Shown here piece by piece: positions 34,513-38,527 of a stretch of 64,000 nucleotides of DNA (position 1 is the first letter of the stretch; each line of letters begins with the position of its first letter). A model generated the notes under the pieces. That model made no database searches. It saw only the letters and a list, made by a program, of their open reading frames with translations, and was not told the origin of the DNA. The stretch is from Gammaproteobacteria bacterium (GTDB taxonomy: Bacteria > Pseudomonadota > Gammaproteobacteria > Burkholderiales > Gallionellaceae). Location of the stretch: the NCBI GenBank assembly GCA_018813765.1, contig JAHJBC010000006.1, forward strand, positions 62,001 through 126,000, written 5' to 3'. The position numbers and the translations under genes were made by a program.

Positions 34513-34590
34513 GCGGTGTGCCTCGTTGGTGCGGCGGATTGTGCTTGGGGCGGGCGCTTCAGTCAACGAAGTTCATGTGGATGAAACAAC

Positions 34591-34612
34591 AACCGGCAGC
34601 AAGCTGCCGGTT
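34591..34612 (-). terminator. Hairpin after first Cys-rich protein gene
   Basis: A 22-bp perfect hairpin (AACCGGCAGC, AA, GCTGCCGGTT) located 42 bases past the stop of the Cys-rich gene at 34654-34935, followed on the minus strand by GTTGTTT. It is identical to 34999-35020. Confidence 0.7.
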
Positions 34613-34653
34613 GAATTTGTTAATGCCGATGTGTCAGAAGGCGTTCTGGCATA

Positions 34654-34935
34654 TCAACAAGCCTTGTATCCGGTAGCTGTTCTCTTGCAGCATACGACAG
34701 GCCCGCCCGGTGGCGGGCAATGTGCCAACACACAGCCTGTTGGACACATGGCAGCGAGGAGTATTGGCGAGGTTGAAGCAGTTTCACTGGAGTTGTACTT
34801 CTCACCGGTCATTGCGGGGGGGGGGGTAGTCTGCGCTGCAGTCGATTCCTGGCTTGTCGGCGCAACGGCGACATCTGCTGCAAAGGCAGGTACAACAACG
34901 GTCAAGGCCAGCAAAAACATTATTACGTTCTTCAT
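34654..34935 (-). CDS. Small secreted Cys-rich protein A
   Basis: A 93-residue protein. The signal peptide MKNVIMFLLALTVVVPAFAA is followed by a mature start DVAVAPT, a Ser/Thr/Pro-rich linker, and a C-terminal motif of six cysteines: C-P-x-G-C-x4-C-P-x7-C-C-K-x-T, then a last Cys as the final residue. The spacing is C-x3-C-x4-C-x8-C-C-x9-C. The same pattern with x5 and x7 gaps ends the next protein upstream (35060-35494), so the two are paralogues. The motif could form disulfides in the periplasm or outside, or bind metal. I do not recognise the family. Confidence 0.65.
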   Translation of the reverse strand: MKNVIMFLLALTVVVPAFAADVAVAPTSQESTAAQTTPPPAMTGEKYNSSETASTSPILLAAMCPTGCVLAHCPPPGGPVVCCKRTATGYKAC

Positions 34936-34998
34936 GGTTACACTCCTGTTGTGGTTAAGAAACAATCACGACATTGCTCATGCATGCCGTCCAGCAAC

Positions 34999-35020
34999 AA
35001 CCGGCAGCAAGCTGCCGGTT
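34999..35020 (-). terminator. Hairpin after second Cys-rich protein gene
   Basis: The same 22-bp hairpin as 34591-34612, 39 bases past the stop of the 35060-35494 gene. The flanks are also conserved (CAACAACCGG and GGTTGAATYTGTT), so the copying included the terminator. Confidence 0.7.
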
Positions 35021-35059
35021 GAATCTGTTGTGCGGGTGCGACTTGATGCACCCGCTATT

Positions 35060-35494
35060 TCAGCAGGGTTGATGCGTCGTCAATCTGCAGCACTTGGTGG
35101 TTATCGGACAAGGCATCAGATAGCATCCCGCCGGGCAAGCCTTGAGCATGGGTGCAGGAGAGATGTGCCAAGTCACTTTGTCCTGGGCGTTCTTCAACAG
35201 GTAGTCCATCAGTGCGCCGGAGGCGCTTGCGCAGGTGATTTGTGTCGACTCCGTCGTCCGTTTTTCGGAGCTGTGGAAGCATGCGTTCTCTTTATACAGT
35301 GCGGTCTTTTCCAGTTCATCCAGCAGCGTGCCCACATCCTCTTTCGTTCCCTTGAATTCGATGATTGCACCGGTCGCTACGGCAGGCGCTGTTTTCATGA
35401 CATCGGCTTTCATGGCAGCCGGCGCGACCGCAAGATCCCCGGCCCAGACAGATGTGGTGATAAAGACTGACAACAGCAGCAGCATGTATTTCAT
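35060..35494 (-). CDS. Small secreted Cys-rich protein B
   Basis: A 144-residue protein. The signal peptide MKYMLLLLSVFITTSVWA is followed by GDLAVAPA (compare DVAVAPT of the paralogue at 34654-34935), a central domain of about 70 residues with two cysteines (NACFHSS, ITCASAS), and the C-terminal six-cysteine motif CPAGCYLMPCP...CCRLTTHQPC (C-x3-C-x4-C-x5-C-C-x7-C). It lies 93 bases after the outer-membrane TPR-barrel gene, on the same strand. Function unknown; it may be exported or anchored with the barrel protein. Confidence 0.65.
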   Translation of the reverse strand: MKYMLLLLSVFITTSVWAGDLAVAPAAMKADVMKTAPAVATGAIIEFKGTKEDVGTLLDELEKTALYKENACFHSSEKRTTESTQITCASASGALMDYLLKNAQDKVTWHISPAPMLKACPAGCYLMPCPITTKCCRLTTHQPC

Positions 35495-35587
35495 GTTTTC
35501 TCTCCCTTTGCGGTTATTAAAGATATGGGACTACGCGCTGTTACAAGGACTGTTAGCCCATCACCTGCATGAAACAAGGCTGCGTCC

Positions 35588-38527
35588 TCACCAGCCCAGT
35601 TTGATTTTTGCATATACCAGTCGTCGGCTGCTGAACCGAGGGTTGAGCTTGTCGATTTCTGTGTATTGCATGCGCGCATCAGCGGCATTGCGTACACCGG
35701 CGGTCAACGAGCCATCCCTGCTGAATTTCCAGTTCAGGTCGGCATCCACCTGATTAAAACTATCCTGATGAGCGAATGATGCCGGGCCAAAAGTTATCAG
35801 ATCAATATCATATTGTTTTCTACCTGCGACCTGGTTATGGCTCCATGTCAAATTTGCCGTCCACTGCGCGCTGGCAAACCAGCGCAGCGCCAACTGCTGC
35901 GAACGCAAATGCTGTTCCTGCACGGAATCCTGTACAAAAACTTGATCATTCTGGATGCGCTCATCCTCGTAGGCCAAGCTTGCGGCCCAAGGGGTCCCCT
36001 GCGGTTGCCAGTGCAAAGCCAGCCGGGCTTCGTCGATCTCGGTCCTGAGTAGGTCCTGATCAGGGGCGGTGAGGACGACCGGCTGATCAGTCTGGCGCTG
36101 TTGAATTTCCGCCGTGATCAGCCAGTTCGGATTCAACTGCCTGTCTCCCCCCAGGGCGGCGGCCTGCACCAGTTGGCCGTTATCGCCGGGACGAGACAAC
36201 AGGAAACCGGCAAGGCTGACTGGCGCGAGTGTAGCGTCGCCCACGCCGTAAATCCCCAGGCTGCGCCAGACGGCGACGCGCACATGTGTTGCGCTGTCCG
36301 GCGCAAAGACCATGCCCAGACGGGGCAGCCAGCGCGCCAGTCCAAGGTTGTTGACCCCCCCGGTATCATCTCTGGTTTCGATCTTGCCCCAACCCAGGCC
36401 AGCATCCAGTTGCCAGGCATGATCCAGCGTCTGTTGCCAGGCAAAATAGTACTGGCGGGCTACTCTGGCATCGTCGGTGAAGACGGACCCTGTGAGCGTA
36501 TCCCAGTAAACCAGATTTCCCCGCGTCTGCAGCATTCCCAACTGAATCGCATGGGAAACCCCGCCGCGACGATATTGGAGTTCCGCGCTGCTCACCCTGT
36601 CGCTGCCGGACTGCGAGAAGGCGTTCGGCGGGACAAAGAAATCCAGATTGTCTCGCACTTGCTCGGTCTGCTGCCGACTCCATAAGCCGCGCAATTCGTC
36701 GTCGTCAGACAGATTATGGCGCAAGCCCAAGCGAGTTATTGTGCTCACATCTTCTATTGCAGAGTGGTAGCCGTAAAGGAAAGCCGGTTGAAATGTTTCG
36801 CCATGCTGCGAATTGAACGACTGGTGCGACACAAACATCTGCGTGGATTCGAGCGGTCGCCACTGCACAATGCCCTGCCACATGCGGTTGTCGAGATCCT
36901 CGAACGGTGCATTGCCGTCGGTCTTGAAACTGCGCTGTGCCAGGCTCAATCCCAGCGTATCGTTGCCAACACCCAGCCGGACCTGCTCACCCAAGGTGTG
37001 GTGGCTGGCTGCGGTGGCATCAACTTCCAGCGTGGTGGGCTGGCTGAATAGTTCGTCGTAGTTGTTATAGCTGGCCTGCTGTGCGCCGAGTCCGCTGACC
37101 ACGCCATGTTGCGGTGTGGCGGCGCCGGTCTGGCCTGCACCGTCGCCATACACGTCCAGTTCCGGCGGCAGGTTGCCCGGCCTGTCGTTGAACTGGCTTT
37201 GCAGCAGCAGGCTGCGCCGCGCCGATTCGCCGAAGCGTTGGCCCTGCAGCAGGCTGGCCTGGTCCTTCAGGTTGGCCGAGCTTTTTTCGCCGACCGAAGC
37301 GGACAGGGACTGGAACGCAAGCTGTTCCAGTCCCAACTGGCGTTGTACTTCGGCGAGGTTGGCTTGCAGCAATTGCTCGTCTTCCTTGAGCAGGCGTTCG
37401 CCGCGATACACGGAGCGATAAGCCAGCCGAGCCTGCGCTTCGCGCAGGGATTCGCGCGATTCCTGCGGGCGGTTGGCAAGCAGTTGCGCCTGTGCCTGAT
37501 ATAGCCAGGGAACGGGGTCCTTGGGGTCGGCCTGTTGGGCGCTGCGCCAGCTTGCCCTGGCGGCTTCGGTCTGGCCGAGTTGCAGTTGCGAGCGGCCCAG
37601 ATAGGTGAGTATCAGCGCGTTGCCGGGGTCGGCGTCATTGGCTGCCTGCAATCTTTCGTGGCCGGCGCGGAAGTTGCCGAGCTTGATCTCGGCCAGCCCC
37701 AGCCCCAGCAATGCCTTGGCATCACGGGGGTCGCGCTTGAGCGCGGTTTCGAACGCGGTCTTGGCTTGCTGTGCCTCACCATCGATCAGATAGACCAGGC
37801 CGTTCACGGCGACCACGTAGGGGTGGGCGGGATCTGCATGCTGTGCCTGTTGCGCCAGCGATCTGGCTTCATGGATATGGTCCAGCGTCAGCGCCAGTTC
37901 AGCTTCGCGCGCAAGGGCGACTGCAGATGCGGGGGCTTTGGCGTTGAAACTGGCCATCTCGTTGCGTGCTTCGGCAAGTTGACCGGAGCCCTGCAGGGCA
38001 TAGGACAGGGCCAGGTGAGGCAATATGCCGTCCAGCTCATGCGCATGACGGGCAGCATCAAGCGCTTCCTGCATCTTCCCTTGTTGCAGATGCGCCATGG
38101 CGGTTAGTGCGTAGGCATCTGCCGCATAGCGGGGCCGGGAAAAGAGAGGAGCAAGGACTTCCAGCGCTTCGCGGTGCTGGTTGCCTTCCAGCAGCAGGCT
38201 GCTGCGCAACAGGCTCAGTTCCGCTCCGGTATCGGTGTCGGCCTTCACGCCCTTGCTGGCTTCATCAAGCAATATCATCGCGTCGAGGAAACGGCCCTCA
38301 TGTTGCGCCTGCGAGGCGGCGTGCATGGCCGGAGTGGGTTTCGATGGATGAAATTGGGTTGTCGCCAGCGGCAAGGTCCAGATCGCGCTGCGGCCATGCC
38401 CCATGGATTGTTCCGACGGAGCGCTGATCTGCTGTAAAAACGCATCCTCTTCGGCAGCCTGCGCTGCTCCCGCGAACAGGCTCAGCCCGGCAATGCCTAT
38501 CAACAGTAAAGTACGTATATATTCCAT
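35588..38527 (-). CDS. TPR-containing outer-membrane beta-barrel protein
   Basis: A large 979-residue protein with a signal peptide (MEYIRTLLLIGIAGLSLFAGAAQA cited in part), an N-terminal superhelix of TPR-like repeats (about residues 60-400; examples: AHLQQGKMQEALDAARHAHELD, LGRSQLQLGQTEAARASWRSA), a linker, and a C-terminal half (about 460-979) of alternating beta-strands typical of a TonB-receptor-like or PgaA/BcsC-like barrel, ending in the outer-membrane signature KIKLGW. No TonB box or plug is visible. TPR plus barrel proteins such as PgaA, BcsC and PelB export polysaccharides. The two Cys-rich secreted proteins encoded immediately downstream could be its cargo or partners; that is inference. 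Confidence 0.75.
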   Translation of the reverse strand: MEYIRTLLLIGIAGLSLFAGAAQAAEEDAFLQQISAPSEQSMGHGRSAIWTLPLATTQFHPSKPTPAMHAASQAQHEGRFLDAMILLDEASKGVKADTDTGAELSLLRSSLLLEGNQHREALEVLAPLFSRPRYAADAYALTAMAHLQQGKMQEALDAARHAHELDGILPHLALSYALQGSGQLAEARNEMASFNAKAPASAVALAREAELALTLDHIHEARSLAQQAQHADPAHPYVVAVNGLVYLIDGEAQQAKTAFETALKRDPRDAKALLGLGLAEIKLGNFRAGHERLQAANDADPGNALILTYLGRSQLQLGQTEAARASWRSAQQADPKDPVPWLYQAQAQLLANRPQESRESLREAQARLAYRSVYRGERLLKEDEQLLQANLAEVQRQLGLEQLAFQSLSASVGEKSSANLKDQASLLQGQRFGESARRSLLLQSQFNDRPGNLPPELDVYGDGAGQTGAATPQHGVVSGLGAQQASYNNYDELFSQPTTLEVDATAASHHTLGEQVRLGVGNDTLGLSLAQRSFKTDGNAPFEDLDNRMWQGIVQWRPLESTQMFVSHQSFNSQHGETFQPAFLYGYHSAIEDVSTITRLGLRHNLSDDDELRGLWSRQQTEQVRDNLDFFVPPNAFSQSGSDRVSSAELQYRRGGVSHAIQLGMLQTRGNLVYWDTLTGSVFTDDARVARQYYFAWQQTLDHAWQLDAGLGWGKIETRDDTGGVNNLGLARWLPRLGMVFAPDSATHVRVAVWRSLGIYGVGDATLAPVSLAGFLLSRPGDNGQLVQAAALGGDRQLNPNWLITAEIQQRQTDQPVVLTAPDQDLLRTEIDEARLALHWQPQGTPWAASLAYEDERIQNDQVFVQDSVQEQHLRSQQLALRWFASAQWTANLTWSHNQVAGRKQYDIDLITFGPASFAHQDSFNQVDADLNWKFSRDGSLTAGVRNAADARMQYTEIDKLNPRFSSRRLVYAKIKLGW

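Follow-up and report, generated by a model that had tools for sequence, protein, structure and literature searches.

We analysed a stretch of 64,000 nucleotides (nt) from a member of the Gallionellaceae (assembly GCA_018813765.1, contig JAHJBC010000006.1, positions 62,001 to 126,000; here called the window, and its genome G000), whose list of open reading frames (ORFs) places on the minus strand a gene for a 979-amino-acid (aa) outer-membrane barrel protein, followed by two genes for small signal-peptide proteins. We found that the barrel and the small protein almost certainly form one functional unit. The explanation that we tentatively prefer, while giving it as a whole slightly less than even odds, is that a receptor-type barrel of the NsrA family is inherited with dedicated small protein partners, which would act as its ligand or co-receptor; the pairing is well supported and the mechanism is what we infer. 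Indeed, the 979-aa protein with signal peptide, TPR repeats and barrel on one strand, as described in an earlier sequence-only reading of this DNA, was confirmed by the ORFs, Pfam and an AlphaFold2 model, and the common six-cysteine C-terminal motif which that reading had seen in the two small signal-peptide proteins is present in the ORF translations.

Among 158 genomes of the family, the barrel was found in 19 with a profile of three close barrels (E up to 1e-40), and the small protein in 24 with a profile of 16 small proteins (E up to 0.001), of which 18 were counted as clear (E below 1e-12, a cut-off picked after the list was seen). The other six matches (G009, G475, G513, G528, G533 and G538) had E-values of 2e-6 or worse and reached profile positions up to 78 of 95 only, mostly in the signal peptide and linker, and the clearly readable one, in G533 (locus L216), was an unrelated 303-aa protein. 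Both genes were present in 17 genomes (Fisher p 1e-19, uncorrected for relatedness), only the barrel in G494 and G540 (the latter a fragment at a contig edge), and only the small protein in G504, where it lies 284 bases from the contig start. The sequence-only reading had taken the barrel and the Cys-rich genes as one system, and this stands: it had named barrels mostly lacking Cys-rich genes as the contrary outcome, and the opposite was found, the small protein being present in 17 of the 19 barrel genomes. Moreover, in 16 of the 18 testable copies, meaning copies with a readable 3' end and downstream DNA, the barrel is followed by the small gene at a distance of no more than about 510 nt (14 read from loci, G439 and G460 from profile-match coordinates; the partial barrels of G036 and G540 were left out). 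The gaps between the two genes are mostly 43-100 nt, with 155 nt in G509, 226 nt in G539b and 503 nt in G514. The gene surroundings of the pair, compared by eye, differ between G000, G021, G034 and G036, and therefore the pair is not merely frozen synteny. A search with the window's 144-aa small protein alone gave no clear relative besides itself among 61 genomes, and the profile did better.

The two partners also diverge together. In the tails of all 16 aligned window-type small proteins, six cysteines follow one of two spacings: type I contains a CC pair, type II does not. In a maximum-likelihood tree of the barrels, which includes some partial-barrel rows, a single branch (support 96/98) splits the nine type I rows from the eight type II rows. 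The spacing needs one change on this tree, and 0 of 500 shuffles gave so low a number. Both types occur within the window's own genus g1 (G000 type I, G021 type II) and also within g29, so that the spacing tracks the barrel rather than the genus. Small proteins of the long type, which like the 144-aa protein have an extra middle domain of about 70 aa, are also found in G503, G509 and G447. Outside the family, the G299 small protein, whose genome falls in a different family within the order, comes close to the six-cysteine spacing of the window, and the G059 small protein has its first three cysteines at the same positions as the window proteins; comparing the window small proteins by BLAST with their counterparts in G299, G059 and G357 gave nothing significant (best E 0.005), and hence the likeness to the G299 and G059 proteins rests on cysteine spacing.

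Judged by its sequence, the window barrel is a FecR-less branch of the Sinorhizobium NsrA family. A family hidden Markov model (HMM) built without the window aligned to the window protein over model positions 215-1118 with E 1e-84, and to its barrel half alone with 6e-28; the alignment begins past the FecR part. The same HMM matched three rhizobial NsrA-like proteins (1206-1256 aa) at 3e-47 to 4e-45, and one ordinary TonB receptor used as control gave no match. The rhizobial NsrA-like genes are directly followed by CHASE2 cyclases, and one of the proteins matches (70.9% over 98%) a gene on S. meliloti pSymB that is annotated nsrA and has cyaK directly after it. According to PMC7529298, NsrA is an outer-membrane receptor that is needed together with CyaK for perceiving a protein signal, and its acidic extracellular loops were proposed to bind ribosomal protein uL2, the candidate for this signal in both PMC7529298 and PMC13001267.

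The domains and fold of the window barrel point the same way. A Pfam scan of the 979-aa protein listed 14 families at E up to 1, among them several TPR models and TonB_dep_Rec_b-barrel (PF00593, E 1.5e-8, residues 585-756); at that threshold there was no match to the Plug domain PF07715, the FecR domain PF04773, DUF560/SlipAM or a polysaccharide-exporter barrel family. In the AlphaFold2 model, residues 52-445 form a helical solenoid and residues 499-978 make up 22 beta-strands, and the best fold matches of the barrel are TonB-dependent receptors (by Foldseek, with E about 1e-10 to BtuB, FpvA and OprC, and by VIA). No exporter chain was among the 50 best VIA matches listed, which is no evidence by itself. 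We also considered and rejected an identity with NfrA, as NfrA_C (PF13283) had no match in the window's own genome and matched in the E. coli control.

Further, the association extends to a wider family, in which the two distant barrels scanned carry a FecR domain ahead of the TPR part. By the family profile, the barrel occurs in 23 of 399 evenly drawn genomes of the order, window's genome included; 24 of the 30 loci fetched had a complete barrel end, and a small ORF lies downstream of 23 of these 24 copies, with a two-cysteine tail in 19. A contig scan with the window barrel as query gave no match, whereas five FecR-type members used as queries yielded 77 named loci from the best 80 of 374 matches, a set which leans to Nitrosomonas because only these best 80 were kept; the loci are mostly from Nitrosomonas and relatives, and also from records named Nitrospirota, Desulfobacterales and others. 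After leaving out L092 (a long match, likely broken), we counted 71 of the 76 loci for downstream genes and 64 for upstream genes. A small ORF is found downstream in 66 of the 71 (65 of them of at most 270 aa) and has a two-cysteine tail in 54, compared with 12 of 242 control genes, 6 of these 12 being behind ORFs of about 3.3 kb which resemble additional barrel copies. A CHASE2 nucleotide cyclase lies directly upstream on the same strand in 45 of the 64 FecR-type loci with enough DNA. The clearest case is L177, in which the barrel is followed first by the small gene and then by the cyclase, and the ORFs of the small protein and the cyclase overlap by 4 nt. When 60 of the 66 downstream ORFs were clustered (size limit 270 aa, gap limit 130), pairs of barrels had small proteins of the same cluster in 2 of 301 cases at 40-50% barrel identity, 168 of 1037 at 50-60%, 141 of 324 at 60-70%, 33 of 35 at 70-80% and 14 of 14 above 80%, a rise which plain co-descent would also give. 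Across the small proteins the C-terminus is conserved and the N-terminal part varies, and many relatives of the barrel are paired with proteins whose two conserved tail cysteines sit in a predicted beta-meander. Two further layouts were observed in this family: L093, L097, L104, L111, L123 and L132 hold ORFs which at about 3.3 kb are as large as a second barrel copy would be, each followed by a small Cys-tailed ORF of its own, and at L172 (G190, contig C160) the barrel gene is read as two adjacent ORFs (396 and 704 aa), with a CHASE2 cyclase on one side and a small Cys-tailed gene on the other.

The small proteins appear to belong to no known family beyond weak scattered matches. Pfam and NCBIfam scans of the 16 window-type small proteins gave only such matches (best 1.6e-4), the best being acid_shock_Asr in 3 of the 16, which we took as low-complexity linkers, together with single matches to the CopL and CzcI families (E 0.007-0.01). 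By Pfam, the window's 144-aa protein is without a family and its 93-aa protein has only a weak New_glue match, and at 0.01 there was nothing for 31 small proteins of FecR-type loci. The small proteins had no sequence match in the PDB, and for the predicted fold of the L097 small protein (83 aa; pLDDT, the model's per-residue confidence score, 78) the best PDB match had E 0.24, none reaching 0.001. Eleven of the 16 window-type small proteins are clearly basic, the window's own two not among them. A binding of Lys-rich small proteins by acidic barrel loops was considered as well; the predicted loops have 17 Asp/Glu and 7 Lys/Arg residues, which was too weak, and the idea was not used. Among the FecR-type small proteins, a cluster of nine (L100, L106, L109, L118, L129, L138, L142 from Nitrosomonas europaea, L146 and L152) is membrane-anchored, with an N-terminal anchor and, in 7 of the 9, an S-x-x-A-x-A stretch right before the Cys-rich tail; from these sequence features, the cluster looks like a precursor that would release a peptide.

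All features of the locus lie on the minus strand of the window. The 979-aa protein, a FecR-less NsrA-like family member with signal peptide, TPR solenoid and TonB-dependent-receptor-type beta-barrel (35588..38527; ORF, Pfam, AlphaFold2 model, fold matches and family HMM), begins with MEYIRTLLLIGIAGLSLFAGAAQA and ends with ...IKLGW. Its TPR solenoid, residues about 52-445, is encoded at 37193..38374 (Pfam TPR models and helices in the model), and the predicted 22-strand barrel, residues 499-978, at 35594..37033, where the model and the Foldseek and VIA matches to TonB-dependent receptors agree and no Plug domain (PF07715) was found. The 144-aa protein (35060..35494), of the long type by ORF and alignment, consists of a signal peptide, the middle domain of about 70 aa and a six-Cys tail with the spacing C-x3-C-x4-C-x5-CC-x7-C (35063..35137, by sequence comparison). 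The 93-aa protein (34654..34935), of the short type by the same evidence, has an ATG start with a Shine-Dalgarno sequence, a signal peptide, a Pro/Ala/Thr-rich linker and a six-Cys tail with the spacing C-x3-C-x4-C-x8-CC-x9-C (34657..34746, likewise by comparison). Both therefore combine a signal-peptide-like N-terminus, assigned by hydropathy and by eye, with a C-terminus of the form CPxGC-x4-C...CC...C with six tail cysteines. In addition, a repeat search of the window found a terminator-like hairpin of 24 nt with a perfect 10-bp stem after the 144-aa gene (34998..35021) and an identical one after the 93-aa gene (34590..34613), and these are the only two copies in the 64 kb at up to 3 mismatches. 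One identical hairpin behind each small gene suggests that the two are tandem duplicates, each with its own private terminator. In a reading by eye of the ORFs from 31 to 43 kb, the locus is flanked on one side by what we take to be endonuclease III-like and Rnf-like genes and on the other by a presumed cobalamin adenosyltransferase-like gene. Elsewhere, near a Nitrosovibrio barrel, L094:10383-12683 (minus strand) encodes a protein that combines a TIR domain with a long NPHP3-like TPR array.

In the explanation that we prefer, the small protein would be exported by Sec, secreted and oxidised, its tail being folded via disulfide bonds, and would bind the barrel as a cognate protein ligand or a surface co-receptor; the barrel with its periplasmic TPR arm would report on or respond to the small protein. 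The output in most FecR-containing relatives would be the neighbouring CHASE2 nucleotide cyclase, giving a cAMP-type signal, and in the window's branch an unlinked CHASE2 cyclase may take this place, the genome having several: G000 has five CHASE2 places on contigs C13, C3, C8 and C2, none on the window's contig C12, and four of the five also match the cyclase part of a CHASE2-cyclase profile. Taken against export, we regard such a receptor/partner mechanism as plausible and hold it with real hesitation.

Several observations weigh against this explanation. The count of 17 shared genomes is partly circular, because 14 of them supplied sequences to the small-protein profile (of the clear genomes outside the profile, G439, G447, G460 and G504, three of the four have the barrel), and the two-cysteine tails of the wider family were scored by a rule written after looking at the sequences. 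The G494 barrel is without any small gene found and the G447 small gene, of the long type, is on another contig; in the barrel tree these two exceptions group together as sisters (99/97). The model of the barrel has a medium overall confidence (pLDDT 72.8) with a poor linker at 446-495, and the barrel part of the NsrA-like proteins matches the HMM weakly (domain E 1e-8 to 2e-5), while their FecR and TPR parts match strongly. The window barrel is without FecR and without a linked cyclase, and no small Cys-tailed gene accompanies the barrel or the cyclase at the rhizobial NsrA loci L163, L164, L165 and L171, so that NsrA itself works without one. Of 60 FecR-type small proteins, 24 scored as being without an export signal (23-24 when L125, which was misscored and has a lipobox, is considered), which fits a surface ligand badly and weighs against any single envelope role, and 22 carry a lipobox, which is hard to reconcile with a diffusible ligand. 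As a separate observation, 16 of the 24 without an export signal keep the two-Cys tail (e.g., at L097, L101, L102, L103 and L110).

The main rival of the receptor/partner reading is dedicated export, in which the small Cys-tailed proteins would rely on the TPR-barrel to cross the outer membrane, their conserved C-terminal Cys tail serving as a tag; the barrel would then work like a type 11 secretion system (T11SS, Slam/DUF560) without belonging to that system, a membership which we rejected as no matching domain was found. We consider it possible but rather unlikely. The architecture and gene order do resemble the T11SS as outlined in part of PMC8406197, with periplasmic TPR plus barrel beside lipidated or soluble cargo, the small proteins combine a conserved C-terminus with a variable N-terminal part, as would suit a tag, and the TonB-dependent-transporter barrel Oar was reported, in a section of PMC6434023, to be needed for secretion of the PopC protease. 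However, the window barrel has no DUF560/SlipAM match and 22 strands in the model rather than 14, the closest characterised homologue found is a receptor, and for the 23-24 of 60 FecR-type small proteins in which no export signal was recognised, Sec offers no route to the barrel. An improbable alternative is that the small protein serves as a separate plug or lid, which closes or gates a TonB-dependent-receptor-type barrel that has lost its own plug domain. The 22-strand model without a Plug domain, the pairing and the matched divergence would fit, but tails of about 25-31 residues with mostly low-complexity linkers (short type) look small for the lumen of a 22-strand barrel, residues 446-495 (low-confidence model) may fill that lumen, and NsrA loci are seen without such a gene. 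More doubtful still is metal handling, with the six-Cys proteins binding a metal that the barrel takes up: the small proteins are Cys-rich and putatively secreted and the barrel has a TonB-receptor-type fold, but the two tail cysteines of the relatives in the predicted beta-meander look more like a disulfide, and there is no Plug and no known metal-binding family, only the weak scattered CopL and CzcI matches mentioned above. Finally, that the barrel is a polysaccharide exporter of the PgaA, BcsC or PelB kind, as compared in the sequence-only reading, with the small genes incidental, is very unlikely. TPR plus barrel in one chain would fit, but against it stand no exporter barrel family match, no NfrA_C in the genome, 22 strands, fold matches to TonB-dependent receptors, the NsrA homology, the strong pairing with the small genes and no polysaccharide synthase genes noticed when the ORFs from 31 to 43 kb were inspected by eye alone; we rejected this candidate, and by model and domain matches the barrel is not of that kind.

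The barrel family is thus known, via NsrA, and the FecR-less branch and the co-encoded Cys-tailed partners were not found described in the open-licence literature searched. So far NsrA has reportedly been treated as a receptor with which rhizobia sense a protein signal from the plant, and it is now placed in a large family with records named from several phyla, in which most testable relatives outside rhizobia carry a co-encoded small Cys-tailed protein. This small protein is a concrete candidate for what the receptor-type barrels bind or carry, and the family opens genetics in free-living ammonia oxidisers grown in the laboratory, such as Nitrosomonas europaea (L142), not just in nodules. A broader proposal, which we offer as speculation with low confidence, is that Gram-negative bacteria widely possess matched pairs of an NsrA-type receptor and a self-encoded, fast-diversifying Cys-tailed ligand, which would amount to self-made peptide signalling across the outer membrane; many species would have the pair wired to a CHASE2 cyclase, and the window's branch would be a stripped-down version without FecR and linked cyclase.

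Compared with known systems, the window protein shares with PgaA, BcsC and PelB the TPR-plus-barrel layout, but these have a 16-strand barrel, and the window protein is of another barrel type, with no matching domain and no synthase genes seen nearby. With type 11 secretion (Slam/NilB/HrpB, DUF560), which according to PMC8406197 exports lipidated and soluble cargo, it has in common a TPR-plus-barrel chain beside small lipidated or soluble secreted proteins; it differs in being without a DUF560 match, in its 22 (model) versus 14 strands, and in small proteins that carry a Cys tail and matched no known cargo domain. Type 11 cargo is marked by a C-terminal eight-stranded barrel, and the window's small proteins gave by Pfam no more than the weak New_glue match. 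TonB-dependent receptors are alike in the 22-strand barrel (model), the PF00593 match and the best fold matches, whereas the window barrel has a long periplasmic TPR solenoid instead of a Plug domain, none being found. The closest likeness is to NsrA of S. meliloti with its CHASE2 adenylate cyclase CyaK: the window protein lacks FecR and a linked cyclase and is accompanied by two six-Cys proteins not seen at NsrA loci, but its TPR region is homologous, its barrel is weakly similar by profile, and its FecR-type relatives keep the CHASE2 cyclase as neighbour.

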